From a virus, in the IMG/VR virus record IMGVR_UViG_3300045972_000043, positions 1 through 21,827 of that record: a stretch of 21,827 nucleotides of DNA; one strand, written 5' to 3'. Below the pieces are notes generated by a model, which did not search any database, had not been told where the DNA came from, and saw only the letters and a program-made list of their open reading frames with translations. A program made the position numbers and the translations under genes. This document shows positions 1 to 15,998 of the stretch, piece by piece. Each line of letters opens with the position of its first letter. Within the stretch, counting starts at the first letter, position 1.

Positions 1-3000
1 GTCAATATGGTCCTCAAGCCCGAGTTTCTTTACTACCTCAGACTCTAACCAATAGTATCCCTTGGTACCCACGACAGCGTGCCGCTTCCCATCGGATACT
101 CGCATAAGAGTCATACCATATTCTTTTTCCATTGGGCAGAATTGCCCCGTTCTTCCGACATATGTGCTATTGAACAATTCTCCTTTCTCGTCCAATTGGT
201 CTAGATAGAAGTCTGCATCAACTGCGGCTTTTGTTTCGCACATATCTTCGAAGAGCACGGGTTCTTTAGAGAACATGTTCTTGAAGACATACGGGTGACT
301 GTACTGCGCACCAGTCGAGGTCCACTCATTAGCGTGCTTGCCGCCTTTTGTGCGAATGCCCTTGTCGTCATATTTGGCGATGTAGACGGCATCGTTGGCT
401 AGGAACATCTTTGCATAAGTAGCCTCATGCTCGAAGTCATAGCCATACTGCTTGCCATAAGCGAAGACGAAGTCAACAATTTCCTGTGTAGCATCGGGGA
501 TCTTTATTGAGTCGGTCTTAATATGGGCGACAGTAAATCCACGGGCTTGCACCTCATGCTTCAGGTTGATCATGAAGAGCGCACCGCGCTTAGCGACGAC
601 ATTGTCATTGTTGCGGGGATCTTTGAAGGGATTGTTGAATGCCGCCGAAGTTAGCCCATAAACGATGTTAAGGGCAATTTTCAGCGCATTTGCCAGGTTG
701 CCGGATGCTTCTTTGTCAACTAGGTACTTCTCCAACACACCGCCGAGCATTCCCTTAGCAGAGTCATAATCCTTGTGCTTGATTGCAATGCGGGCATCCT
801 TTAGGTCACTGTAATTCTTAGTGTAGGGTCCAAAGAGACCCATAAGAATAATAGACGACGGATGCATTGACGCGATGTCAAGTAAGGCAACATTCTTATA
901 GACGCCATGCTCAGCATACACATAGCCGCCTTCACCAGGGTTTTCGCCTCGATAGAGGCTCTTACCGTGCTCGAAGGTATAACCAGGAAACAGCTTTGAA
1001 AGATCTGGGTAGATGAACTTATCCTGGGGATGATTGTCATTACCAAATATGATCTTGGCTGCATGACGTTGGGTTGTCTCGTTCATGCTAAGACCGCTCA
1101 ACTCGGATAGGATCTTTCTTGCAACAACGTCTTCCTTGATGTGGTGATATACAACTTCCAAGGATCGGACATCGTTGCCGCAGTATTCAATTACTAGGGG
1201 TATTAGTTCTTCGGGAACTGGAAGGTTCCATGGGTGTCCTAACTCCTGGTGATGAATACCAAGTTCAATCTGCCATTTCTTCAAGGACTGTTTCTTTGTT
1301 GCCACGTCGTAGACATCCAAGTAACTGACATTGTACGCTTCGCCAAACAGGCAAGATCGATTATTACTAATGATCTTTTGGCTAAGCCTGTACAGATCTT
1401 CAATGCTATAACCCAAATAGCAGGCATACAGCATGTGGTTGTCATAGCGACGATTGTTGAATCCAACGGTCTTTAACTTAAGAAGGTGCTCAATCTCTTG
1501 AGGGGTTGGATTAAGAAGGTTGACCATTTGGTCGTCCCCCTCATATTTCCAACACACAAGAAACATATTGCTAAAACACTCGACGTCGTAAAAAACTACC
1601 CTATCTTCTTCTTGAAATCCCTTATCCACGCTTGGCTCGACAGACGCAAACTTCATCTGAGTTACCCGGCGGACACAATACTCCTTTTGGTTAGTGCTCC
1701 GCATTGCGAAAGACAAGATGCGACCACGCATGTCTGAGACATCATAATGCATCCCTGATTTGGTTGCCTCTTCAAGAATTGTATAGATGAAGTCAATACT
1801 CGGACGGGTGCCTGGATGGATCTCTTTTGCCAGATTCTTCTCGATCAGGTTGCGAAGACCCATCTCAGATCGGACTACTTTGTCGTTGATCACCTTCTCC
1901 TCCTTTAATGGGAGTCCACCGTTTAAGGTAGCTACCGCGAGTTTGTTGCATTTACTTAGCTTGCGACGAAGGGCAGCGTCACCGTTGAAGACTTTTATCT
2001 CGATGCCAGGCGAATATAGGTTGCTGAGCCTGCTTGCGTCACCGGTGTAGAAGTAGTGAAGATGTAGACCCTCGCCACTCTTACTCAGTTCAGCATATGT
2101 TGGAGGCCAACTGCTAGCAGCTTCTAGGACCCTTACCACAGACTTGTATCCTTTTTCATCTTTCATATCAAAATCGATAACGATGTGGGTGGTTTCCCCC
2201 GGTTCTGGAAGTTGGACATAGTGCAATTGAGTTGTATCCAAATCCCACAATTGTGTTTTTACGTCGATCCATCGCTTCTCCGGAGTACCAGCGTCATTAG
2301 CATACTGTGCAAGACATATTCCGCACATCTCGTCGAACAGGGAAGGCCCTTCTTCTAGAACTATCCACGACTCATTCTCTTCTTTACCAACCAGCTCTTG
2401 CTCAGTAGAGAATTTATCCGCACGAAATCCTTGGTAGTAGTTTCTAACCTGCTTACCTTCGACTCGTGTTACGTCGTGTAGTTTTACGAAGTAACTTCGC
2501 AATTCTTCGCGGAATTTATACTTCGGCTCGATCCGGTCTATCTTCGACTCAGAGCAATACTGCTTATACCAGTCATACGCCTGAGTTAGAGTTGCACCAT
2601 CCTGAGTTTGGAACTGCTCGAAATACGACTCAACATAGTTGAAAAAGATATTCGTTTCAAACATCATGTCTACTGGTTTATACAGGGCGTAATAGTTCTT
2701 GCCCAATTTCTTGTAAACCTCCAGACAGTGCCAAGCGATAGCGCCCAACTCGAAGTCTATCCGAGCTACGAGGTCGTAATACTGTTTTACGGGGACCTTA
2801 CGGCCTGAGGGTCGAACATCGATAAGACGACGGATAAGACCCGATTTGGCATTGGTGATCTTAACAGGGCTGTTCGTTCCCATGAATAAGAAACAATTGA
2901 AAGACATCATGTAAGGCGTCTTATATTTCTCGTTCATGTTCATATTATCGTGCCCAACAAGACTGTTAAACATTGTGTTGGTTTCGATCCTGGATAGATC

Positions 3001-3702
3001 TCCATCGTGATCAATTGCTACTAAAGGATTGTTCTTTAGTATTTCCAACGCAAACGAATTGTTATTTGAGGTTATCGCCTTCGCATCGAATGCACTGTAA
3101 TATCCTTCGAACAACTTTTGCACAATATTTAAATATGTTGTTTTACCAGATCCGCCCTCGCCGTACAAAACAATAAACTTTTCGATCTTCTTCGAGTCGC
3201 CGGATATAACTGCTCCAATACCCCACTCAAGCTTCTCTAGCTCTTTAGGTTCGTACAAGGTTGTCGAGAGTTCCGTATATGCAGAATGATCGCCCTCGGC
3301 TAAAGAATAAGGTAAGCGTTTGCTTACATAATCCGATTTGCTTGTTGGTGTGTTGGTAAACGTTAACTTCTCGTCGATTTGGTGTGATGAATCGGCAAGT
3401 TTTGATAGATAGGTTTTGAACTCAGTCCATCTTCCGGAACTGAATTCCTGCATCGACTTAACGACAACTTTGGCGCCAGGGGTTGTTTTCTCGATCTCCT
3501 CCTTTCTTGCAAAGAGATCTTCATCAACCAAGCGTCGGAGTTCATACTCGTCGGTGCTCCATAGTTCTTTCGCTTTATCCCACACAGCGTAGAACTTTGA
3601 ACCTCTCACCATCATGTCGTGAGATCTGACAACCCTAAAATCGGGCGACAGTTCTATTTTTCCTGATGGTAGGGTGCGTTCTTTTATCTTGTAAAAATCC
3701 AC
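1..3702 (-). CDS. Helicase-primase-family B DNA polymerase fusion protein (partial, 3' end outside window)
   Basis: A single frame of 1234 sense codons starts at GTG 3702 and is still open at base 1. AGGAG lies 8 nt before the GTG. Domains in order: an unassigned N-terminus (1-170); an SF3/D5-type helicase with Walker A GEGGSGKT (181-188), an acidic LVAIDHDGD stretch (227-235), MGTNSPV with the sensor Asn277, and arginines 291-292; a winged-helix-like part (about 390-450); an archaeo-eukaryotic primase core with IDFD (509-512), SGEGLHLHY (542-550) and GIEIKVF (566-572); a DEDDy exonuclease with YDVE (705-708), GFNNRRYDNHML (747-758) and YCGND (840-844); and family B polymerase motif A DIASMHPSSI (D942), motif B K1008-N1012-YG (1015-1016) and motif C KTDS (1062-1065). 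I checked that the helicase, primase, exonuclease and polymerase motifs are all in the same frame. It should unwind, prime and copy the phage genome from the adjacent repeat region. The first Asp of the usual DTDS is Lys. The thumb lies beyond the window. Confidence 0.93.
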   Translation of the reverse strand, partial: MDFYKIKERTLPSGKIELSPDFRVVRSHDMMVRGSKFYAVWDKAKELWSTDEYELRRLVDEDLFARKEEIEKTTPGAKVVVKSMQEFSSGRWTEFKTYLSKLADSSHQIDEKLTFTNTPTSKSDYVSKRLPYSLAEGDHSAYTELSTTLYEPKELEKLEWGIGAVISGDSKKIEKFIVLYGEGGSGKTTYLNIVQKLFEGYYSAFDAKAITSNNNSFALEILKNNPLVAIDHDGDLSRIETNTMFNSLVGHDNMNMNEKYKTPYMMSFNCFLFMGTNSPVKITNAKSGLIRRLIDVRPSGRKVPVKQYYDLVARIDFELGAIAWHCLEVYKKLGKNYYALYKPVDMMFETNIFFNYVESYFEQFQTQDGATLTQAYDWYKQYCSESKIDRIEPKYKFREELRSYFVKLHDVTRVEGKQVRNYYQGFRADKFSTEQELVGKEENESWIVLEEGPSLFDEMCGICLAQYANDAGTPEKRWIDVKTQLWDLDTTQLHYVQLPEPGETTHIVIDFDMKDEKGYKSVVRVLEAASSWPPTYAELSKSGEGLHLHYFYTGDASRLSNLYSPGIEIKVFNGDAALRRKLSKCNKLAVATLNGGLPLKEEKVINDKVVRSEMGLRNLIEKNLAKEIHPGTRPSIDFIYTILEEATKSGMHYDVSDMRGRILSFAMRSTNQKEYCVRRVTQMKFASVEPSVDKGFQEEDRVVFYDVECFSNMFLVCWKYEGDDQMVNLLNPTPQEIEHLLKLKTVGFNNRRYDNHMLYACYLGYSIEDLYRLSQKIISNNRSCLFGEAYNVSYLDVYDVATKKQSLKKWQIELGIHHQELGHPWNLPVPEELIPLVIEYCGNDVRSLEVVYHHIKEDVVARKILSELSGLSMNETTQRHAAKIIFGNDNHPQDKFIYPDLSKLFPGYTFEHGKSLYRGENPGEGGYVYAEHGVYKNVALLDIASMHPSSIILMGLFGPYTKNYSDLKDARIAIKHKDYDSAKGMLGGVLEKYLVDKEASGNLANALKIALNIVYGLTSAAFNNPFKDPRNNDNVVAKRGALFMINLKHEVQARGFTVAHIKTDSIKIPDATQEIVDFVFAYGKQYGYDFEHEATYAKMFLANDAVYIAKYDDKGIRTKGGKHANEWTSTGAQYSHPYVFKNMFSKEPVLFEDMCETKAAVDADFYLDQLDEKGELFNSTYVGRTGQFCPMEKEYGMTLMRVSDGKRHAVVGTKGYYWLESEVVKKLGLEDHID

Positions 3703-3728
3703 TCGTACGACTCCTTTCAAGAGTTTGT

Positions 3729-4193
3729 AAAAACCCCGGTGGGATAGTTTTGTTACAATGTTACACTTTTTTGTCCAAAACTATTATATATATTATATAT
3801 ATTCTATAAAGAGTTTATGACGTTAAAAGTGTAACATTGTAACACGACCCTCCAAAAATGGCCTAAAACGCCGATTTCGCCCGTCGGATAGTTTAAAAAC
3901 ACCCAAAAACGCGTAAAAACCCCGGTGGGAGAGTTGTAAAACACCCTAAAAACCCCGGTGGGAGAGTTGTTTTTGTTACATCTTTTGTCACAAAACTGTA
4001 ACATAACCATTTTCGACAACTATCCCACCGGGCCTTTTTCAGACCCCTTTTGAAATAGTACCGGTGGGAGAGTTGAGTTCTGTTACAAACGGTCAAAAGT
4101 GTAACACGTTTGTAACACGTTTGTAACGGCTTTACCGGGCCTTTTTCAACTATCCCACCGGGCCTTTTTCAACTATCCCACCGGGCCTTTTTC
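3729..4193. repeat. Bidirectional CCCGGTGGGA(T/G)AGTTG repeat family
   Basis: Copies reading on the plus strand lie at 3729-3749, 3915-3936, 3948-3969 and 4061-4075. Copies in the opposite orientation lie at 4017-4040, 4147-4170 and 4170-4193, with a half copy at 4130-4146. The last two are a perfect tandem with a 23-bp period, and the final one runs into the stop codon of the flanking gene. Plus copies carry AAAAACC before the core and minus copies carry AAAAAGG, so two sub-families exist. Oppositely oriented copies could pair into long hairpins. Confidence 0.88.
3751..3844. repeat. Perfect 20-bp inverted repeat around an AT-rich core
   Basis: TGTTACAATGTTACACTTTT at 3751-3770 is the exact reverse complement of 3825-3844. 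Each arm contains two TGTTACA motifs spaced 8 bp apart. The 54-bp interior includes an uninterrupted stretch of alternating T and A. This could be a cruciform, paired binding sites for an initiator, or both. Confidence 0.9.
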
Positions 4194-5873: not shown

Positions 5874-6821
5874 TCAGATCTTAAATTTCAGCAAGCTGAG
5901 AATCGGGCCGTCGACGTTGAAGTCGAGGACTGCGCAAGATTCTTGCCCCGCGCAGAAGGCCTGGTTAACCGTATCCTTCAACCCGAAGTCGACATAGTCA
6001 TCGTGCTTACCATTGTAATACCACCCAACGCTCCATCCTGCTTCGGTTTCTTCGAAACCCAGCATTCGGTAGACGTCATTCAAGAAGATATGACCGCGGC
6101 TTTGCAGAGTCCAATTGGCCTCACGCTGAATTCCTTCCACGAACGCCAGATTTGCCCAGGGCGTCGTGCGGAAATGGACAGGACTGTTGATTTTATCAAA
6201 GATCCTGGAGTAGTCGCTCAGGCCGTTGTCGTCGAAGTGCATCTTCCATTTCTCGGGGGTCTCAACTTCGCCATCCTTGCCAATCACAGCAGGTTCGGAG
6301 ACCTCGGTCGCATTCAACCGGATCATATTCTCGCGATCGTCGCCAACTTCCTTCTGGACACGACGGCGATACTTCTTGAACGAACTATCCAACAGCGTAT
6401 ACGCAGCGCTAACAGCCACCAGTTGGCCATTGAGCATCTTGTATCCGCCCAGGATAGACACCAGGCTTACCACGCCGACAGTCGCAGGCAGAGCGTAGAG
6501 TTTCCCGACGTTGAGCCACTTCTTGGTGTGCGCCAGGAGAACGTCGCGCTGCTTGTTTTCTTCGGTGTAGATCGCGCCCTTCACCAAACGCTTTCCGATC
6601 GAGAGATCGGAGTCTTCTTCAACGCGGTCAATCTCTTCGTCACCGTCCCACAGGGTGCGATCAAGGTCATACGTAGCCTTCGAGGCTAGCACGACAGTCG
6701 CAACCATACCAATACAGCCACCGATAATCATCAGCATCGGGCCGTTCTTCTTTGTCCACAGTTCAGTGCGACCGAGGGCGAAGCGCCCAGCGGCCAAACC
6801 TTTTTCAAGAATTTTGATCAT
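5874..6821 (-). CDS. DUF6353-like membrane protein (copy B), 315 residues
   Basis: Start ATG 6821 has AAAGGA upstream. Two hydrophobic segments lie at about 28-47 and 106-126, separated by an acidic loop. A helical stretch (about 133-160) ends in a KKYRRR cluster. The C-terminal domain has a RGHIFLNDVYRMLGF block, then VGWYYNGK, DYVDFGL and LDFNVDGPI. This matches the pattern I associate with DUF6353, a phage membrane protein of unknown function; the N-terminus is more divergent than in the second copy at 10021-10839. It is followed by the membrane-anchored acidic protein, a pairing that recurs in Gram-positive phages as far as I recall. A sense run follows its TGA stop in the same frame (see findings). 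Confidence 0.88.
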   Translation of the reverse strand: MIKILEKGLAAGRFALGRTELWTKKNGPMLMIIGGCIGMVATVVLASKATYDLDRTLWDGDEEIDRVEEDSDLSIGKRLVKGAIYTEENKQRDVLLAHTKKWLNVGKLYALPATVGVVSLVSILGGYKMLNGQLVAVSAAYTLLDSSFKKYRRRVQKEVGDDRENMIRLNATEVSEPAVIGKDGEVETPEKWKMHFDDNGLSDYSRIFDKINSPVHFRTTPWANLAFVEGIQREANWTLQSRGHIFLNDVYRMLGFEETEAGWSVGWYYNGKHDDYVDFGLKDTVNQAFCAGQESCAVLDFNVDGPILSLLKFKI

Positions 6822-9089: not shown

Positions 9090-9347
9090 CTACTTTTTCT
9101 TATCTTTGTAAAAAGCCTGAACTTCTTGATAGACCGCGACGGTCTCTTCGACTTCATGCTCGGCGAACCGGGCCACGCTTTCTGCCAATATACCAGTAAT
9201 CACCACTTCCCCGATGCCAGTCAAGATCTTTCTAAAGACCGACTGCTTGTCAGGCATAGTGTCGATTACTATATTATGGACGACAACGTGTATCCCAGCC
9301 GCGGAGATGGCTCTTACGATACTCTTCGCTAACTTCTTTCCTTCCAT
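9090..9347 (-). CDS. Small membrane-associated phage protein, 85 residues
   Basis: ATG 9347 has AGGAGG 5 nt upstream and the gene has its own promoter at 9375-9402. The N-terminus (MEGKKLAKSIVRAIS) is a basic amphipathic helix. Residues about 41-57 (ILTGIGEVVITGILAES) form a modest hydrophobic segment, followed by an acidic helix and a KDKKK end. I recall phage proteins of this shape in the same gene neighbourhood, with a central 'GG-V--G--AD' hydrophobic part, but no function. The gene is followed by a hairpin. Confidence 0.78.
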   Translation of the reverse strand: MEGKKLAKSIVRAISAAGIHVVVHNIVIDTMPDKQSVFRKILTGIGEVVITGILAESVARFAEHEVEETVAVYQEVQAFYKDKKK

Positions 9348-9374
9348 GCTTCCTCCTAAACAGAATATAGTTCC

Positions 9375-9402
9375 ATTATAGGCGAAGTTCTACGCGCGCG
9401 TT
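9375..9402 (-). promoter_or_regulatory. Shared-family promoter for 9090-9347
   Basis: -10 TATAAT lies at 9375-9380 (minus strand), preceded by CGCGCGTAGAACTTCGCC. The element lies inside the last codons of the preceding gene, and the TAA stop of that gene is part of the -10 box. Confidence 0.7.
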
Positions 9403-9753: not shown

Positions 9754-9966
9754 CTACTCCACCGGAACTTCGGTGGGTTCGACAGTTTCCTCGACCTGGC
9801 CGGGTTCGGTTTCAACAGACGATTCGATCTTGTCGGCGCCAGCTTTCAAAACACCGGCGACCGCAACAGCGATCCCGATGCCAGCAAGCGTAGCACCACC
9901 AACAATCATCTTCTTCTTGTTCGAAACGAACACCAGGCCCTTAGCCAACGTATCAGTCAGTCCCAT
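9754..9966 (-). CDS. Single-span membrane mini-protein, 70 residues
   Basis: ATG 9966 was chosen because TTGGAGG lies 5 nt upstream; an ATG four codons earlier overlaps that site. The basic stretch SNKKK is followed by a glycine/alanine-rich membrane span (about 20-42, ATLAGIGIAVAVAGVL). After it comes a long acidic Glu/Pro/Val tail. The basic side before the span suggests the N-terminus is inside and the acidic tail outside. It is monocistronic, with its own promoter and terminator. No family recognised. Confidence 0.78.
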   Translation of the reverse strand: MGLTDTLAKGLVFVSNKKKMIVGGATLAGIGIAVAVAGVLKAGADKIESSVETEPGQVEETVEPTEVPVE

Positions 9967-9995
9967 TTCATCCTCCAATCAAAAGTATATGTATC

Positions 9996-10023
9996 AATAT
10001 AAGCGTGGTTTTTTACGCGTCTA
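9996..10023 (-). promoter_or_regulatory. Shared-family promoter for 9754-9966
   Basis: ACGCGTAAAAAACCACGC precedes a TATATT -10 at 9996-10001. The block begins directly at the TAG stop of the DUF6353-like gene before it. The leader GATACATATACTTTTG is nearly identical to that of the 12847-12996 gene. Confidence 0.72.
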
Positions 10024-10839
10024 CAGAAATGACAACTTGGTTCCAGACGGCAAGGGCATCGGGCGCTGCATGTATTCGAGAGTAATGCACGGCGTATTGT
10101 CCGCAGCAAGTTTCGCGCCGAAGTCAATATTCAGCATAAACTCGTCGACAGTTCCGTTCTTGACAGACCATCCGACCAGATCTCCAAGACCAGTGACCGG
10201 AAGACCCAAGGCGCAGTACCATTCGTTGGCCGTCTTGTACTGGCAGCGCAGAAGGTCTTCGTTGAAGTCATTCATCTTGCGCCGGACGGTCTCAATGTCG
10301 CCTTTGAAGTAGCGCCCAGAGAGTCCGTCGTAGCATAACGTGTCACCACCAGTAAAAATGATCTGGGTGTTGTTGATCGGAGTTGCATCGAGCTTGTCCT
10401 GCATGATCTCGCCTCTCAACTCCTGTTCCTTCTTCTCGCCAACCTTCTCAATGATCTTTTCGCGGTATTTCGTGATCGTCGTCTCGGCAAGCCCGTACAA
10501 GGCAGCCAGAGCCGAATATCGTTTTTCCCCAATAGAATGGGCGGCGACAATGCAAGCGATCGTTGCTAGGCCCATCCCAGCCGCGGGGATGTAGTTTTTC
10601 CAGGTGAGAAGGGCTTTTTCTTTGAGTGTCAGATCCATTGGAGCGGGATAACCTTCAACTGCTGTGTCCCGGTCCAACTCGTTTCTGATCATAAGAGCAG
10701 ATTCAATCCCAGCATCAGCAGCCATGACAGCAGTGGTAACAACTCCGCCAACTGCGAGAGTGGTCAGGATGGTCGTTGAGTGCTCTTTACCAAAGCCTGC
10801 TATCAGGCCAAATATGTTACGTGCGTTGGTGATGTTCAT
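10021..10839 (-). CDS. DUF6353-like membrane protein (copy A), 272 residues
   Basis: ATG 10839 has GGAAGGT 4-5 nt upstream and overlaps the preceding gene by 23 nt; 16 further upstream in-frame codons are left out for lack of a site. Two membrane segments lie at about 22-42 and 84-101. They are followed by HSIGEKRYSALAALYGLAET, a helical KYREKIIEKVGEKKEQ stretch, and a C-terminal domain with GGDTLCYDGLSGRYFKGDIE, NEWYCALGL, LGDLVGWSV and PCITLEY. The order and motifs closely fit DUF6353 as I remember it (YIPA, VG-KKE, DG-SGRYF, LG--VGW), a family common in Gram-positive phages and of unknown function. The domain after the second span should be cytoplasmic if the charged loop faces inward. Confidence 0.9.
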   Translation of the reverse strand: MNITNARNIFGLIAGFGKEHSTTILTTLAVGGVVTTAVMAADAGIESALMIRNELDRDTAVEGYPAPMDLTLKEKALLTWKNYIPAAGMGLATIACIVAAHSIGEKRYSALAALYGLAETTITKYREKIIEKVGEKKEQELRGEIMQDKLDATPINNTQIIFTGGDTLCYDGLSGRYFKGDIETVRRKMNDFNEDLLRCQYKTANEWYCALGLPVTGLGDLVGWSVKNGTVDEFMLNIDFGAKLAADNTPCITLEYMQRPMPLPSGTKLSFL

Positions 10840-11014
10840 TTTTACCTTCCATAAAGGTCTTAGCACAACTTTTGATAGTCTGTCCAAGTAAAACAGGAGA
10901 AAAACCAGTCGCGGAAGCCAGTTCTATGATTTTCGAACGTTCTTCTTTCGTGAAACCCATGGCCCATAAATCTCGTTCGTCTTTACTAATAGGGATTGGC
11001 TCCGAGTCGCTCAT
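10817..11014 (-). CDS. Hypothetical phage protein, 65 residues
   Basis: ATG 11014 follows AGAGGAT and overlaps the stop of the 13-codon gene (ATGA). It starts MSDSEPIPISKDERDLW and has a small helical part (FTKEERSKIIELASATGF, SPVLLGQTIKSCAKTF) reminiscent of a compact helix bundle. The start region is nearly identical in DNA to that of the gene at 11049-11339, with the same MSD opening and the same upstream sequence, which suggests local duplication. Its end holds the ribosome binding site of the DUF6353-like gene. Family not recognised. Confidence 0.78.
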   Translation of the reverse strand: MSDSEPIPISKDERDLWAMGFTKEERSKIIELASATGFSPVLLGQTIKSCAKTFMEGKNEHHQRT

Positions 11015-11879: not shown

Positions 11880-12116
11880 TTAGATCTTGTTGAACAAGAC
11901 GTTGTTGATGATCAGATGCCGGACAACGCCGTCAGGGTCTGTGATCGTTTTAACGTTGATCTTGTGCGGCATCAGGTTGCGGGCCGCTTGGAAACCCCGG
12001 TCGTACCCAGCACTGTAATAGAGAACAGCGACGGTTCCAAGAACAATCCCTAAGGTTGTCGTTGGATGTGCATAGGCGAACTTTTTAACTTTACTTCCAA
12101 ACTCGTTCCAATCCAT
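11880..12116 (-). CDS. Single-span membrane mini-protein, 78 residues
   Basis: ATG 12116 has GGAGG upstream at 6 nt; the in-frame ATG further upstream overlaps the promoter and is rejected. The N-terminus is MDWNEFGSKVKKFAYAHP, followed by one span (about 19-37, TTTLGIVLGTVAVLYYSAG) and a soluble part with TITDPDGVVRHLIINNVLF. It has its own promoter and a structured leader. No family recognised. Confidence 0.78.
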   Translation of the reverse strand: MDWNEFGSKVKKFAYAHPTTTLGIVLGTVAVLYYSAGYDRGFQAARNLMPHKINVKTITDPDGVVRHLIINNVLFNKI

Positions 12117-12141: not shown

Positions 12142-12188
12142 AGAGAAGTAGCAGCAATTGCACCCGAAGGCCCGGCCCCTACTTCTCT
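12142..12188 (-). other. Structured 5' leader of the 11880-12116 mRNA
   Basis: AGAGAAGTAG and CTACTTCTCT form a perfect 10-bp stem starting within a few nucleotides of the expected transcript start. The interior contains GCCTTCGGGT, which can form a UUCG tetraloop hairpin. A 5'-terminal hairpin of this kind could protect the mRNA or hold a regulatory fold. Confidence 0.5.
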
Positions 12189-12189
12189 C

Positions 12190-12217
12190 ATTATAGCCGT
12201 GGTTTTTTACGCGTCTA
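12190..12217 (-). promoter_or_regulatory. Shared-family promoter for 11880-12116
   Basis: ACGCGTAAAAAACCACGG precedes TATAAT at 12190-12195. The block abuts the TAG stop of the preceding gene. Confidence 0.75.
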
Positions 12218-12667: not shown

Positions 12668-12698
12668 TTCTAACACTCCTTCAAAAATTGAAAATAGT

Positions 12699-12778
12699 GA
12701 GACTAAGATATGTTAACGTCCAAGCCGTAATGCCCGGAATATTCTTGACGTCAGAATTGTAACTCATATCTTACTCTC
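12699..12778 (-). other. Long hairpin leader of the 12215-12667 mRNA
   Basis: The arms 12699-12717 and 12759-12778 pair over about 19 positions with one mismatch and a bulge (CATATCTTAGTCTC against GAGAGTAAGATATG). An inner ACGTC/GACGT stem (12716-12720 with 12747-12751) continues the fold. It begins at the expected transcript start and precedes an unusually long leader of about 100 nt. An unidentified cis-acting RNA is possible. Confidence 0.5.
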
Positions 12779-12803
12779 ATAATAGCATATGATTTTTACG
12801 CGT
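12779..12803 (-). promoter_or_regulatory. Shared-family promoter for 12215-12667
   Basis: CACGCGTAAAAATCATATGC precedes a TATTAT -10 at 12779-12784. It lies just after the terminator of the 12847-12996 gene. Confidence 0.65.
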
Positions 12804-12806
12804 GCC

Positions 12807-12839
12807 AAAATGGGAGGACACGTTTCTGTGTTCCCATTT
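12807..12839 (-). terminator. Terminator after 12847-12996
   Basis: AAATGGGA and TCCCATTTT form the outer stem. ACAC/GTGT is the inner stem closing an AGAAAC loop. It has A-runs before and T-runs after, so it could work in both directions. Confidence 0.8.
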
Positions 12840-12846
12840 CCTTACA

Positions 12847-12996
12847 CTACCCTCCGACGACTTTATGCCAGTGTTCGATGATCCGGTTGCGCATCTGCTC
12901 GGCCTTCCGTGCGACGTCGATGATGAACTCAATCATCTTAATCAGCATCCACAGAAAAACCACAGTCGCATAAACCTTTCTCAAAAACTTCCGCAT
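12847..12996 (-). CDS. Membrane-associated mini-protein, 49 residues
   Basis: ATG 12996 has GAAGGAG 7 nt upstream; the stop is TAG 12847. The protein starts with a basic MRKFLRK, then a hydrophobic segment (about 8-27, VYATVVFLWMLIKMIEFIID) and an amphipathic charged helix ending HWHKVVGG. It is monocistronic between its own promoter (13028-13056) and terminator (12807-12839), which supports its reality in spite of its size. No family recognised. Confidence 0.75.
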   Translation of the reverse strand: MRKFLRKVYATVVFLWMLIKMIEFIIDVARKAEQMRNRIIEHWHKVVGG

Positions 12997-13027
12997 TTAA
13001 AACTCCTTCGACAAAAGTATGTGTATC

Positions 13028-13056
13028 ACTATATGCTCAGTTATTTTAGCGTGGAT
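13028..13056 (-). promoter_or_regulatory. Shared-family promoter for 12847-12996
   Basis: CACGCTAAAATAACTGAGCA precedes a TATAGT -10 at 13028-13033. It overlaps the TAA stop of the preceding gene. The leader GATACACATACTTTTG matches that of the 9754-9966 gene. Confidence 0.62.
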
Positions 13057-13264
13057 ATCGCTTAAGAATATCCAGACCTTCCGACCACATCTGATTGCAC
13101 ACCTTGTCGATCTCCACTAAACCTCTGTGAAGTTCCCAACTCGGTTTAAAAGACACAAAGCACCAGACCATCATAATGAGTGTTATCAATCCCATTAGGA
13201 TAGTCACGAAGACCAGGGCAATCAGCCCAATGACCCACTTCCAAATCCACCAGATAGTTTTCAT
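13046..13264 (-). CDS. Trp-rich membrane protein, 72 residues
   Basis: ATG 13264 has GGAGGA 3-4 nt upstream. The N-terminus MKTIWWIWKW leads straight into a long hydrophobic segment (about 11-38) with IGLIALVFVTILMGLITLIM. A soluble C-terminal helix follows (ELHRGLVEIDKVCNQMWSEGL). Unlike its neighbours it has no TATAAT promoter; only the CTAACCATATTT element separates it from the terminator of the gene before, so it may depend on readthrough. No family recognised. Confidence 0.75.
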   Translation of the reverse strand: MKTIWWIWKWVIGLIALVFVTILMGLITLIMMVWCFVSFKPSWELHRGLVEIDKVCNQMWSEGLDILKRYPR

Positions 13265-13288
13265 TCTTCCTCCAAATATGGTTAGGCG

Positions 13289-13322
13289 AAAAGAGGAGGA
13301 CAGGTTTCCCTGATTCCTCTTT
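13289..13322 (-). terminator. GAAA-loop terminator after 13330-13509
   Basis: AAAGAGGA and TCCTCTTTT form the outer stem. TCAGG-GAAA-CCTG is the inner hairpin. A T-run follows. The gene at 13046-13264 begins only 25 nt further on. Confidence 0.8.
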
Positions 13323-13329
13323 CAAACAA

Positions 13330-13509
13330 TTAGTTCTTGAACAAGCTGATCTGGCGTTCGATCAAAGCGAACAGCATCTTGTAAAACCGAACAAACACGT
13401 AGACAGACAAAGTCATCGAGACGCCGCAAAGCGCCATGTAGACAATGAAAGCAACGAGAATGCTCCGAATAACTTCGGCGCTGATAACGATGTTAATTCC
13501 GTCAATCAT
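13330..13509 (-). CDS. Membrane mini-protein, 59 residues
   Basis: ATG 13509 (MIDGINIVIS) has GGGAG 8 nt upstream; an in-frame ATG 11 codons earlier would fall at or before the transcript start. One long hydrophobic stretch (about 13-45) with SILVAFIVYMALCGVSMTL could cross the membrane once or as a tight hairpin. It is followed by a basic end (FALIERQISLFKN). Own promoter and terminator. No family recognised. Confidence 0.78.
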   Translation of the reverse strand: MIDGINIVISAEVIRSILVAFIVYMALCGVSMTLSVYVFVRFYKMLFALIERQISLFKN

Positions 13510-13540
13510 TTTTAACTCTCCCAAAACTAGAATATGTTTC

Positions 13541-13568
13541 ATTATAGCAGTGGTTATTTACGCGTGCG
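13541..13568 (-). promoter_or_regulatory. Shared-family promoter for 13330-13509
   Basis: CACGCGTAAATAACCACTGC precedes TATAAT at 13541-13546. GAAACATATTC follows the -10, as in several members. Confidence 0.75.
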
Positions 13569-13604
13569 AAAATGGGAGCCTAAGTTTCCCTAGACCCTCC
13601 ATTT
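13569..13604 (-). terminator. GAAA-loop terminator after 13612-13854
   Basis: AAATGGAGGG pairs imperfectly with CTCCCATTTT. The inner part is CTAGG-GAAA-CTTAG with a G-U pair. It ends in TTTT and touches the next promoter. Confidence 0.8.
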
Positions 13605-13611
13605 CCTTAAA

Positions 13612-13854
13612 TCACTTAGTCATAAACCGGATTTCTTTCCATTGATCGGATATAACCACGACGAAACCGTTGAGACTTATTTTGAATCCTTTCTTGACCC
13701 CGCCGGTGCGACCGTATGTGAATATACCAGTGACGAACACCGGAAACATTACAACAATACTAATCGCGCAGGCGACAATCGCCAAAGCAGTCATAGCAAT
13801 CCACAACCAAATTTTCAACGCGTCTAACCAAACACCTAACAGAAATTTACCCAT
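13612..13854 (-). CDS. Membrane protein, 80 residues
   Basis: ATG 13854 (MGKFLLGVW) has AAAGGAG upstream; earlier in-frame ATGs overlap the -10 box or precede it. A strongly hydrophobic region (about 15-45, WLWIAMTALAIVACAISIVV then MFPVFVTGIF) can make one or two spans. A glycine/lysine-rich turn (GRTGGVKKGFK) and a short NGFVVVISDQW segment follow, with a basic end. Own promoter and terminator. No family recognised. Confidence 0.8.
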   Translation of the reverse strand: MGKFLLGVWLDALKIWLWIAMTALAIVACAISIVVMFPVFVTGIFTYGRTGGVKKGFKISLNGFVVVISDQWKEIRFMTK

Positions 13855-13879
13855 TTCATTCTCCTTTAGATTTAATTTC

Positions 13880-13905
13880 ATTATAGGCGCAGTTATTCTC
13901 GCGAA
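13880..13905 (-). promoter_or_regulatory. Shared-family promoter for 13612-13854
   Basis: TCGCGAGAATAACTGCGCC precedes TATAAT at 13880-13885. The leader GAAATTAAATC is identical to that of the 13943-14062 gene. Confidence 0.75.
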
Positions 13906-13939
13906 AAAGGGAGGAGACGTTTCCGTCGTTCCCCTTTTT
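13904..13939 (-). terminator. GAAA-loop terminator after 13943-14062
   Basis: AAAAAGGGGAACGACG-GAAA-CGTC and CTCCCTTTTT form a long stem with a GAAA loop, followed by T5. It directly abuts the next promoter. Confidence 0.82.
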
Positions 13940-13942
13940 GAA

Positions 13943-14062
13943 TTATTTCTTTTTGAACGATTTTCCAACAAAGTAGATAACAACAACGATGGTTGCAATG
14001 ACGAGCAGGGCTTTACCCAGCACAACGAACATTCCGACACCAATCACAGCGCTTTCTAGCAT
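13943..14062 (-). CDS. Single-span membrane mini-protein, 39 residues
   Basis: ATG 14062 has TTGGAG upstream at 8 nt; the stop is TAA 13943. The protein is almost entirely one membrane helix (about 5-32, VIGVGMFVVLGKALLVIATI) with a basic KSFKKK end, so the C-terminus should be inside. Its small size fits a holin-like, antiholin-like or exclusion peptide, but nothing specific identifies it. Own promoter and terminator. Confidence 0.75.
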   Translation of the reverse strand: MLESAVIGVGMFVVLGKALLVIATIVVVIYFVGKSFKKK

Positions 14063-14094
14063 TTTAGTTTTCTCCAAAAAATAGATTTAATTTC

Positions 14095-14122
14095 ATTATA
14101 GGCGTGGTTTTTTACGCGTGTG
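14095..14122 (-). promoter_or_regulatory. Shared-family promoter for 13943-14062
   Basis: CACGCGTAAAAAACCACGCC precedes TATAAT at 14095-14100. This is the closest member to the consensus; GCGT-N8-ACGC inside it is an inverted repeat. Confidence 0.8.
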
Positions 14123-14158
14123 AAAATGGGAGGCTGAGTTTCCCCAGCGCCCATTTTT
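14123..14158 (-). terminator. GAAA-loop terminator after 14163-14342
   Basis: AAAAATGGG and CCCATTTT form the outer stem. GCTGGG-GAAA-CTCAGC is the inner hairpin with one G-U pair. It could work in both directions. Confidence 0.82.
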
Positions 14159-14162
14159 GAAC

Positions 14163-14342
14163 CTACTTCCAAAAATCGTTCTCAAAACAAGTCTTAACAT
14201 TCGTCCCTGTGTTAAAGCAGACTGGGCCCCATTTATTTGTGGTTTCATCAACCCGGCTAATAGCCGAGCTAATTAAAGCCGCAATACAAATGGTCGCCAC
14301 GACCAAAATCAACACAACGATTCGTTCCGTTTTCTTGTTCAT
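14163..14342 (-). CDS. Exported or anchored protein with a Cys pair, 59 residues
   Basis: ATG 14342 (MNKKTERIVVL) has AAAAGGAG 7-8 nt upstream. A basic start is followed by a hydrophobic segment (about 9-26, VVLILVVATICIAALISS). The remaining 33 residues are polar, with WGPVCFNTGTNVKTCF holding C42 and C52. The positive-inside rule would place this part outside the membrane, where the two cysteines could form a disulfide. A surface role such as superinfection exclusion is only a guess. Own promoter and terminator. Confidence 0.78.
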   Translation of the reverse strand: MNKKTERIVVLILVVATICIAALISSAISRVDETTNKWGPVCFNTGTNVKTCFENDFWK

Positions 14343-14370
14343 TTCACACTCCTTTTTTGAAATATGTTTC

Positions 14371-14396
14371 ATTATAGGCGTGGTTATTCGCGCGAA
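14371..14396 (-). promoter_or_regulatory. Shared-family promoter for 14163-14342
   Basis: TCGCGCGAATAACCACGCC precedes TATAAT at 14371-14376, followed by GAAACATATTTC. Confidence 0.77.
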
Positions 14397-14430
14397 AGAG
14401 AAATGCTAAGTTTCCCTAACATCCCTCTTC
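14395..14430 (-). terminator. GAAA-loop terminator after 14448-14636
   Basis: AGAGGGATGTTAG-GGAAAC and TTAGCATTTCTCTTT form an imperfect stem with the usual loop. It touches the next promoter. Confidence 0.72.
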
Positions 14431-14447
14431 CCCATATCCCTTATGGC

Positions 14448-14636
14448 TTACTCGCCGCGTTTCTTCTGCGATCTGTTGTCAGCGATAAGATAGACAATCC
14501 CACCAAGAATAAACATCCCGAATAAGGCGCCTCCTACTTGAATAGTAGTGTTTTGGCGAATTATTCTTTGCTGATTCTTTTGGATCTTTTCTAGCTCGTC
14601 CATGACCTTTGCATCAACAACCGTAAACTGCTGCAT
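14448..14636 (-). CDS. Coiled-coil plus membrane-span mini-protein, 62 residues
   Basis: ATG 14636 has AAAGGAGG upstream. Residues 1-30 form a soluble helix with heptad-like spacing (VMDELEKIQKNQQRIIRQ). A glycine-rich span follows (about 32-51, QVGGALFGMFILGGIVYLIA), then a basic tail (DNRSQKKRGE). The layout resembles small phage membrane proteins such as antiholins, without a diagnostic motif. Own promoter and terminator. Confidence 0.78.
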   Translation of the reverse strand: MQQFTVVDAKVMDELEKIQKNQQRIIRQNTTIQVGGALFGMFILGGIVYLIADNRSQKKRGE

Positions 14637-14664
14637 AGTACCTCCTTTTCATAGAATATGTTTC

Positions 14665-14690
14665 ACTATAAGGGAGGTTATTCACGCGAA
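14665..14690 (-). promoter_or_regulatory. Shared-family promoter for 14448-14636
   Basis: TCGCGTGAATAACCTCCC precedes a TATAGT -10 at 14665-14670, followed by GAAACATATTC. Confidence 0.68.
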
Positions 14691-14725
14691 AAAGGTAGGC
14701 TAGGTTTCCCCAGCCGTTCCCTTTT
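14690..14725 (-). terminator. GAAA-loop terminator after 14729-14965
   Basis: AAAAGGGAACGGCTGG-GGAAAC and CTAGCCTACCTTTTT pair into an imperfect stem with a T-run. Confidence 0.75.
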
Positions 14726-14728
14726 GAA

Positions 14729-14965
14729 CTACTTCCAAAATTGCCAGAATTTCTTCGGTTGTTTGATTTGATAAAATGTCAGTTCAAGATTCAAGATTTT
14801 GATTCTCCGTTCGAGTTTACTTAAGCCGTATTCATGCGCTGTGATCGCTGCTGCTCTATTAGCAGGATCTTTCATGCTGAAAATGCTCAAATAAAACTCG
14901 TCAAGAGATTGATTCGTGATCTTTAGATCTGATATTTCCTTGCCCAATCTTTCAAGTTCAGTCAT
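14729..14965 (-). CDS. Soluble coiled-coil protein, 78 residues
   Basis: ATG 14965 has AAAGGAG 6 nt upstream. The protein is helical throughout (MTELERLGKEISDLKI, GLSKLERRIKILNLEL), with no membrane span. It ends in an aromatic, basic KKFWQFWK that could insert at a membrane surface. It stands out among membrane-span neighbours with the same promoter type. No family recognised. Confidence 0.78.
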   Translation of the reverse strand: MTELERLGKEISDLKITNQSLDEFYLSIFSMKDPANRAAAITAHEYGLSKLERRIKILNLELTFYQIKQPKKFWQFWK

Positions 14966-14991
14966 CTCTTTCTCCTTTTAGATTTAGTTTC

Positions 14992-15018
14992 ATTATAGGC
15001 GCAGTAATTCGCGCGTAA
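14992..15018 (-). promoter_or_regulatory. Shared-family promoter for 14729-14965
   Basis: ACGCGCGAATTACTGCGCC precedes TATAAT at 14992-14997. GCGC-N8-GCGC forms an inverted repeat. Confidence 0.75.
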
Positions 15019-15054
15019 CCTATTTTAGGAATTTTACTCCGCGGGATTTTTTCG

Positions 15055-15090
15055 AAAAACGGTATGCTAAGTTTCCTTAACATACCATTT
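15055..15090 (-). terminator. GAAA-loop terminator after 15113-15403
   Basis: GGTATGTTAAG-GAAA-CTTAGCATACC followed by GTTTTT is a strong stem with one G-U-type position. A further GC-rich palindrome (CCGCGG) lies between it and the next promoter. Confidence 0.82.
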
Positions 15091-15112
15091 CCGTACAACT
15101 TCTTGATTCGAC

Positions 15113-15403
15113 TCAAACACGTCCCTTAAGGACAAAGCTAATGGCCTTGCTTGAGATCACCCTGAGTTGTTCGTACTCAAGGATGACCACGATTCCGAGG
15201 ATATTCGTCACGGCTACGATAACCGTATCCATGCTAAACGACGGTTTCGACTTTGCAGTCGTAATCGCGTATAGCGCAGTTAAGTTATCTGTAGCGTGCA
15301 AATACTCCTCGCTACCGACGGTCATCTTTGACATCGCTGTCAACACATGAATGACCTCATCATCAATTACCAGTTTCTTTACTTCCTTCTTACGGAACCA
15401 CAT
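15113..15403 (-). CDS. Membrane protein of a phage family of unknown function, 96 residues
   Basis: ATG 15403 has GAGAGGAG upstream. The N-terminus MWFRKKEVKKLVIDDEV is basic then acidic. It is followed by a helical part with a SEEYLHATDNLTALYAI segment, then one membrane span (about 60-76, TVIVAVTNILGIVVILEYE) and a short C-terminal SSKAISFVLKGRV. From memory this resembles a common family of small proteins of Gram-positive phages ('Y---V-NL--L ... VTSKAL-FVLK'), function unknown. It is the first gene after the holin and has its own promoter and terminator. Confidence 0.82.
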   Translation of the reverse strand: MWFRKKEVKKLVIDDEVIHVLTAMSKMTVGSEEYLHATDNLTALYAITTAKSKPSFSMDTVIVAVTNILGIVVILEYEQLRVISSKAISFVLKGRV

Positions 15404-15429
15404 TTAATGCTCCTCTCAAGATGTACTTC

Positions 15430-15456
15430 ATTATACCGTACGTTATTCGCGCGAAC
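15430..15456 (-). promoter_or_regulatory. Shared-family promoter for 15113-15403
   Basis: TTCGCGCGAATAACGTACGG precedes TATAAT at 15430-15435. A second GCGAATAAC copy overlaps the stop codon of the holin gene just upstream. Confidence 0.75.
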
Positions 15457-15461
15457 GGGTG

Positions 15462-15998
15462 TTATTCGCTTGTACGTTCCATGGCTTGTCTGGCAGCCTC
15501 AATTTGAGAAATCTCGACCTTGTATTGGGCGTTGCTAATCCCTAGGAATATTCCCATGAAAGTGTCGATTGCGGCGATAGTTCCGATTACCTGGTCTCCA
15601 TATTGGAAACCCCAGATCGGACTTAACGCGACGGTGATTGTTCCAATGGAGGGAAGCAGGTATTGAGTGAAGAACATCAGAATGTCGTAAGTCTCTTCTG
15701 TCATTTTGATTATTAGACCAGTGCGACGTTCTTGAGTGGGAAAGGTTTTGATGTCTAGCGCAGCGGATCGCTTTAAGAGTTGTCCACCAAGGGACTTAAC
15801 ATCGGCCTGGTATTGTTTGTTCCCCATTCCAAGAACGAACCCCAAGGCAGAGTCAATAGCCATGACGGATAACACAATCTCGTCCCCATAAGGGAAACCC
15901 CAGATCTGTGTCAAGGCGAAGTACAGGGTTGCCAAGCCTGGTAAGAGATACTGGGCAACCCATTTCAAACGGTCGTAAGTTTCATTTGAGATCCGCAT
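15462..15998 (-). CDS. Tandem-duplicated Dp-1-type holin, 178 residues
   Basis: ATG 15998 has AAGGA upstream and overlaps the preceding gene by 17 nt. Residues 3-63 and 99-159 are two copies of one unit that align without gaps at an offset of 96. Shared positions include ETYD, QYLLP, PIWGF or QIWGF, YGD, a central AID, LG and N-QY. The unit matches the Dp-1-like phage holin pattern (short N-terminal helix, two spans with IWG-P-Y between, then LG). Such holins are normally one unit of about 65-80 residues. A linker of about 35 residues joins the units and a charged tail ends the protein. It should form membrane lesions at lysis; the fusion could fix dimer geometry or pair an active with a modulating unit. 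No terminator follows it. Confidence 0.85.
   Translation of the reverse strand: MRISNETYDRLKWVAQYLLPGLATLYFALTQIWGFPYGDEIVLSVMAIDSALGFVLGMGNKQYQADVKSLGGQLLKRSAALDIKTFPTQERRTGLIIKMTEETYDILMFFTQYLLPSIGTITVALSPIWGFQYGDQVIGTIAAIDTFMGIFLGISNAQYKVEISQIEAARQAMERTSE

Follow-up and report, generated by a model that had tools for sequence, protein, structure and literature searches.

A single viral entry in IMG/VR, 21,827 bases long and analyzed here over its whole length (the window), carries on its minus strand at 12,807-15,456 an array of small-gene units, most of which lie between a copy of one shared promoter motif and a hairpin. The array itself is real, and comparison with related phages makes it very likely that it is a site of exchangeable single-gene cassettes. 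For the system as a whole, we favor with reasonable confidence a set of exchangeable single-gene units, encoding proteins or structured RNAs, that are probably read by a polymerase of the phage.

Array layout and comparison with relatives

Nine small open reading frames (ORFs) of 96, 78, 62, 59, 39, 80, 59, 72, and 49 amino acids (genes A to I) were found in the array, each preceded by a Shine-Dalgarno sequence. The first-pass annotation had listed eight genes of 39-96 codons, most with one membrane span; the sizes stood, as did the spans, which were present in eight products, but the count had to be corrected to nine. Segments resembling a membrane span (Kyte-Doolittle, 19-residue window, cut-off of at least 1.6) occurred in 8/9 array ORFs versus 2/15 other small ORFs of the window (Fisher p = 5e-4). 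Eight of the nine genes have their own promoter copy, the 72-amino acid gene H being the exception, and eight are followed by a hairpin; most of the eight intergenic hairpins share the apex GGAAAC. Those situated directly 5' of promoter copies had folding energies of -15 to -26 kcal/mol versus a mean of -10.0 (standard deviation 4.2) for random 54-mers from the window. The proposed order of gene, terminator, promoter, and gene, with one promoter type in common, was thus borne out for most units. Generic scans of the window for sigma-70 promoters and terminators did not rise above chance; the signal is visible only with the right motif and would have been hidden had such scans been used alone.

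The same series of genes, hairpins, and promoters lies directly after the holin position in Arthrobacter phage MediumFry and Gordonia phage Petito, and the layout recurs in ReqiPepy6, Circum, FrodoSwaggins, and others. Across 17 compared genomes, the first unit always encoded phrog_5818 and the array always stopped before a phrog_2152 gene, whereas the units in between differed. Within one cluster, the unit of protein family 30 is missing from Gordon. The family 14 unit takes second place in MediumFry and the last place in both Breylor17 and Nightmare, the family 32 unit is missing from Correa and Xenomorph, and Petito possesses an extra family 7 unit. Presence and absence of a unit between the same neighbors, as expected of morons, was evident in five pairs of relatives. 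The suggestion that the array is a place where cassettes are exchanged was therefore upheld: units were gained, lost, and relocated between close relatives, and an identical set of genes in identical order in all of them was not seen.

The junctions of the five aligned pairs fell in the promoter-leader region for Gordon/DevitoJr, Correa/Tribby, and Petito/Perkunas and at the terminator or terminator-promoter for Breylor17/DevitoJr and Caterpillar/MediumFry. As these junctions map to repeated regulatory sequence (promoter, leader, or terminator), the alignments give good support for cassette exchange through homologous recombination between promoter or terminator copies. Integron-like attC hairpins were provisionally set aside, since the hairpins differ in sequence and the junctions lie in the regulatory repeats; the lack of an integrase gene carries little weight in a record that is probably a fragment.

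All features of the array are on the minus strand, and each gene is an ORF with the Shine-Dalgarno sequence mentioned above. Unit A starts with a promoter motif at 15426-15455 (24.4 bits, predicted +1 at 15429), followed by gene A at 15113-15403, which encodes 96 amino acids with one membrane span, and by a hairpin at 15055-15093 with the GGAAAC apex and then a T-run. Gene A is the conserved anchor of the array: it matched phrog_5818 (E = 3.8e-20), it is the first gene after the holin in relatives, and homologs were present in 71 loci. Genes B to I, in contrast, had no homolog among approximately 300 related loci and no credible match in Pfam and PHROGs searches. Unit B comprises a motif at 14988-15017 (28.2 bits, predicted +1 at 14991), gene B at 14729-14965 (78 amino acids, without membrane span), and a hairpin at 14689-14724. 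It is followed by unit C with its motif at 14661-14690 (28.3 bits, predicted +1 at 14664), gene C at 14448-14636 (62 amino acids, one span), and a hairpin at 14395-14430, and by unit D with its motif at 14367-14396 (31.6 bits, predicted +1 at 14370), gene D at 14163-14342 (59 amino acids, N-terminal span), and a hairpin at 14122-14157. The motif of unit E is located at 14091-14120 (30.8 bits, predicted +1 at 14094), gene E at 13943-14062 (39 amino acids, one span), and the hairpin at 13903-13939; the corresponding elements of unit F are at 13876-13905 (32.5 bits, predicted +1 at 13879), 13612-13854 (80 amino acids, membrane protein), and 13569-13606. In unit G, the motif at 13537-13566 (30.2 bits, predicted +1 at 13540) precedes gene G at 13330-13509 (59 amino acids, membrane protein). 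The hairpin between genes G and H (13288-13323) has no promoter copy behind it, and gene H at 13046-13264 (72 amino acids) again encodes a membrane protein. The end of gene H is overlapped by the weaker motif of unit I at 13024-13053 (17.4 bits, predicted +1 at 13027), which leads to gene I at 12847-12996 (49 amino acids, one span) and a last hairpin at 12807-12841. Beyond the array, one motif at 12775-12804 (29.1 bits, predicted +1 at 12778) belongs to an RNA unit, and further copies on the same strand were found 5' of a small gene at 11880-12116 (motif 12186-12215, 27.0 bits) and 5' of two small membrane genes at 9754-9978 (motif 9992-10021, 17.3 bits) and 9090-9347 (motif 9371-9400, 18.7 bits).

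Promoter motif and start point

The promoter consensus is TTCGC-N7-ACA-N5-TATAATGA with fixed spacing, which can also be written as TTCGC-N7-ACA-N5-TATAAT followed directly by G. An exact sub-pattern of the motif matched the window five times, whereas none was expected from 100 shuffles. A profile was seeded with 25 sites from three phages and grown to 484 non-redundant sites from approximately 90 loci; it matched the gene strand of the window 12 times and the other strand once. At a threshold of at least 10 bits, gene-strand sites numbered 528, whereas the opposite strand and reversed sequence gave 3 each. An ORF with a Shine-Dalgarno sequence lay no more than 110 nt from the motif at 514/586 sites, typically 10-50 nt past the hexamer; the other 72 sites, which lack such an ORF, mostly led to transfer RNA (tRNA) genes or further structured RNAs. 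No motif was present in the structural-gene half of MediumFry (18 kb) or in that of ReqiPepy6 (33 kb).

Two independent signs point to the start of transcription. First, of the 19 tRNA genes that closely follow a motif, 18 had nucleotide 1 of the tRNA 1-8 nt (median 3) past the hexamer. Second, the first base of the closing helix of the RNA units was the one immediately past the hexamer in 58/146 cases as compared with 0/42 at control positions. These positions provide good support for a predicted start at the G directly after TATAAT. A sigma-70 start is expected approximately 6-8 nt downstream and would cut into the tRNA and RNA units, so the start from this motif appears unlike that of sigma-70. 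Promoters of the non-virion polymerase of PhiKZ are likewise of the form (-3)TATG(+1), with G as +1 (PMC7618050).

Candidate polymerase and competing explanations

A candidate reader of the motif is encoded at the end of the relatives' genomes. The protein, phrog_4291, belongs to a family labeled RNA-dependent RNA polymerase, has approximately 880 residues, and contains a single DFDGD motif; in phage genomes it is annotated only as "helix-turn-helix DNA binding domain." DFDGD was invariant in 28/28 members, in agreement with a DxDGD active site. A structure predicted from 28 relatives (mean predicted local distance difference test score of 77.6) matched RDR2 with Z 14.6 over 344 residues and QDE-1 with Z 14.5 over 369 residues, and among phage polymerases P74 gp62 with Z 12.7 over 355 residues and gp64 with Z 11.6. 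A sequence-profile search of solved structures yielded no polymerase match, which was obtained by fold comparison only. As judged from the model, phrog_4291 is a two-barrel RNA polymerase with a QDE-1/RDR2-like fold. Helix-turn-helix (HTH) domains lie near both ends, for example in the proteins encoded at 34035-36683 of locus L004 and 35989-38607 of locus L005. In 26/28 members, these terminal domains resemble sigma region 4.

The gene was present in 43/50 motif-bearing records, and five of the seven records without it are fragments shorter than 35 kb. It also shares a contig with the closest relative of the window (L006 and L309). The motif was found on the polymerase strand in 55/80 polymerase loci, with 81 copies versus 4, and clustered approximately 1 kb upstream of the gene. 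We consider it probable that the phage's own phrog_4291 polymerase reads the motif. A promoter for a T7-type polymerase was set aside because phrog_4291 is nearly universal, although a T7-type enzyme was not looked for exhaustively.

The motif is composite: a CGC-N8-AC block is conserved as strongly as the hexamer and at one spacing, and there is no -35 consensus. An upstream element at fixed spacing would also fit a host RNA polymerase redirected to CGC-N8-AC by a phage activator or sigma-like factor, in the manner of MotA or a late sigma factor, and the phages do encode several small HTH proteins. The start directly after the hexamer is, however, unlike a sigma-70 open complex, and a non-exhaustive comparison showed no HTH protein besides the polymerase to be universal. 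We regard a redirected host enzyme as unlikely, albeit the strongest of the competitors.

A further explanation assumes classical morons in series, each gene having an ordinary host sigma-A promoter (TATAAT as -10, weak -35) and a terminator and being independent of the phage programme. It is favored by the layout of the units and by the hexamer, which in the group of the window is the exact -10 consensus. The absent -35 consensus, the sigma-70 scan at chance level, the fixed upstream block, and the RNA starts abutting the hexamer all speak against it, and so do the related phages of Clostridia, in which the hexamer drifts to TATTATG, TTTTATG, or CTTTATGG. An A at hexamer position 2 was found at 0/12 sites in FP_oengus and at 54% in Clostridia genome loci, where TATTATG and TTTTATG are commonest, while CGC, AC, and AT-G stay fixed. 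Clostridia hosts use the common TATAAT sigma-A box. The drift despite this box argues that the hexamer is not conserved as a sigma-A -10 element. On these sequence features, the array promoter is a type particular to the lineage, and its geometry is at odds with host sigma-70. The isolated Arthrobacter AU relatives are described as lytic (PMC5679793). What remained of the moron label was that most units are one gene flanked by a promoter and a terminator of its own and that units come and go among relatives; a host sigma-70 promoter, which would permit expression from a repressed prophage, disagrees with the geometry and hexamer usage. We dropped the strict label because the promoter is lineage-specific, several units in relatives and one predicted unit beside the array are RNAs, and the AU relatives are described as lytic, and we consider morons in series improbable. 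Least probable of all is an extended lysis module of holins, antiholins, and lysis timers, for although the array adjoins a double Dp-1-type holin gene and most products have one membrane span, in two relatives the structural half lacks the promoter, which is common to replication-region genes and tRNA or RNA units, gene B is predicted to be soluble, and close relatives keep the holin but vary freely in gene content.

Several observations weigh against exchangeable units under a phage polymerase. Unit exchange was seen in relatives and not in the window, where the T-runs behind the hairpin stems are short. The window does not include the phrog_4291 gene and ends in a primase-polymerase gene, and two long motif-bearing contigs (G006 and G015) gave no phrog_4291 match. 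The co-occurrence of motif and polymerase would be equally expected from common descent of both. Moreover, the polymerase operon often has a promoter copy upstream, such that the enzyme would need to enter with the virion or rely on a start by host polymerase. Finally, the hexamer is TATAAT in the window's own group, so that host sigma-A might still use the motif.

Exchangeable units read by a phage polymerase nevertheless remain our preferred explanation. Each cassette would begin with the lineage-specific promoter and finish with a hairpin terminator; between them would lie either a Shine-Dalgarno sequence and one ORF, which usually encodes a small membrane protein with a single span, or one structured RNA. 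The first cassette (phrog_5818) would be kept and the others would turn over fast, recombining homologously at the repeated promoter and terminator sequences. There is moderate support for the promoter being read by the two-barrel polymerase phrog_4291 as a regulon of non-structural genes. As a guess, the variable products may act at the host membrane in host takeover, superinfection exclusion, or anti-defence; such roles would account for the fast turnover, the separate control of each product, and the many membrane spans. We lean slightly toward a still wider statement, namely that in a lineage of Actinobacteria and Clostridia phages an own two-barrel polymerase and the promoter TTCGC-N7-ACA-N5-TWTWAT followed by G may run a modular array of swappable membrane-protein and new RNA units, with the promoter itself as recombination site.

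Exchangeable cargo would explain the abundance of tiny uncharacterised membrane proteins in isolated relatives, and the units that change fastest are a promising place to look for factors of host takeover or anti-defence. The motif is a candidate promoter for a widespread family of phage RNA polymerases that is directly testable in cultured phages, and it gives a simple sequence route to every gene and RNA unit of the regulon.

RNA units, gene order, and relation to known systems

Directly beyond the array and outside the interval of the first-pass annotation, the window is predicted to encode a structured non-coding RNA of approximately 89 nt at 12690-12778 (minus strand). Its minimum free energy was -28.3 kcal/mol (z -5.15, none of 200 shuffles as good), and its closing helix begins at the predicted +1. 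Pairing of the loop GACGUC with a downstream GGACGUU is possible. An Rfam search of this RNA at E 5 returned nothing, nor did ARAGORN and Rfam scans of the window. A separate RNA family was assembled from 15 units of different phages. Besides the P2a and P2b hairpins it has a third one, and a loop-loop pseudoknot whose pairing changes from CGAA/UUCG to CUAA/UUAG. Both sides changed in 15/21 pairs, and 52 cells were counted versus 15.6 in shuffles (0/500); the signal was lost when partners were slid. Apart from tRNA, those loci of this family that were searched had no match in Rfam 15. All members lie under the array promoter, at L004 7754-7860, L010 3033-3121, L012 4268, L064 4403, L066 2142, and L086 8322 and in L122, L133, L162, L168, L169, L197, L200, L219, and L221. 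The window RNA was not assigned to this family, as the family core (the GACACGAA block) is absent and its structure is different.

Other RNAs are also found as units. A truncated tRNA-like RNA of Arthrobacter AU phages, consisting of acceptor stem and T-arm only (AAAGGTAAGG...GGTTCGAATCC...CCTTACC), is located at the predicted +1 of the array promoter (L005 12180-12250, L091 3905, L092 5076, and L093 3029). tRNA genes occur as single array units at L023 1562, L041 1956, L067 3361, L080 2142, and L086 8207, several with odd anticodon loops and with nucleotide 1 at 2-8 nt past the hexamer.

The window is probably a fragment of a longer genome, and all its genes of interest are on the minus strand. 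In transcription order, they begin with tape measure, Dit, and minor tail genes (phrog_4372, phrog_33, and phrog_538), a fibre-like protein, and a phrog_4105 protein. The double Dp-1-type holin comes next, then the array and, past some small genes, one phrog_2152 gene; further small genes and a second phrog_2152 gene lead to a phrog_4210 ORF that is open at the window end. The latter encodes a fused helicase-primase-polymerase (full-length match, E = 0) with 54.6% identity to that of Gordonia phage Petito and approximately 53% to those of Arthrobacter and Rhodococcus phages. A supposedly gene-free region at 1-4,000 was set aside, as it is mostly this one open-ended ORF. Both the phrog_4210 protein and the order of holin, phrog_5818, small units, phrog_2152, and primase-polymerase agree with the group of Gordonvirus, Mudcatvirus, Tanisvirus, Pepyhexavirus, and kin, and the relatives are phages of Gordonia, Arthrobacter, Rhodococcus, and Streptomyces. 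When used as an IMG/VR query, the primase-polymerase recovered relatives; IMG/VR searches started from a single minor tail or holin protein recovered none, and megablast of the whole window against phage records gave no match.

The array is bordered by lysis genes on one side and by a phrog_2152/DUF6353 gene on the other, the DUF6353 label resting on a Pfam match of the Petito homolog. The upstream border is the holin gene at 15462-15998 (minus strand; PF16938, E = 5.5e-42 in two stretches; phrog_881). It contains two tandem Dp-1-type holin domains and looks like an in-frame duplication and fusion, because its two halves align to nearly the same place in relatives. The phrog_2152 (DUF6353) membrane protein is present in this one genome as two divergent copies, at 5874-6821 and 10021-10887 (minus strand). 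In non-coding DNA directly before the primase-polymerase gene (3740-4190, minus strand), a repeat cluster is built on CTCCCACCGGGG and its complement GAAAAAGGCCCGGTGGGATAGTT; it is possibly a replication origin or control region.

Small membrane proteins have been noted in related phages. Approximately 20 are reported for Arthrobacter AU phages (PMC5679793), and many small genes with membrane spans are described as common to the genome center of clusters CC, AM, AW, AU, and DJ (PMC13313380). The region in Arthrobacter AM/AU/AW, Gordonia DJ, and Rhodococcus CC phages agrees with the window in its position after tail and lysis genes, its small membrane-span genes, its anchor gene, and its neighbors, whereas the variable genes of the window are unrelated to theirs in sequence. 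The passages found mention no promoter, single-gene units, junctions, RNA units, or polymerase link, and in the literature searched we found no account of the promoter and its start point, the unit structure, the RNA family, or the link to the polymerase. In halovirus HF2, repeats between genes carry promoters (PMC8707807), as the array repeats do, but HF2 is an archaeal virus and unrelated in sequence. Lambdoid morons resemble the units in that each is one gene, equipped with a promoter and a terminator, that a phage may carry while a close relative lacks it; the array differs in forming a long uninterrupted series, in its lineage-specific non-sigma-70 promoter, and in including RNA units. 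For polymerases related in fold, the P23-45 enzyme uses a dedicated set of phage promoters (PMC10770324), and the YonO promoter was still undetermined in a 2017 paper (PMC5467207). Like YonO of Bacillus SP-beta, gp62/gp64 of P23-45/P74-26, and gp66 of crAss-like phages, phrog_4291 is a single chain with a DxDGD-type active site and a predicted QDE-1/RDR2 fold, but it differs from YonO and its kin in its only remote sequence homology, its HTH domains at both ends, and the long bipartite form of its candidate promoter.

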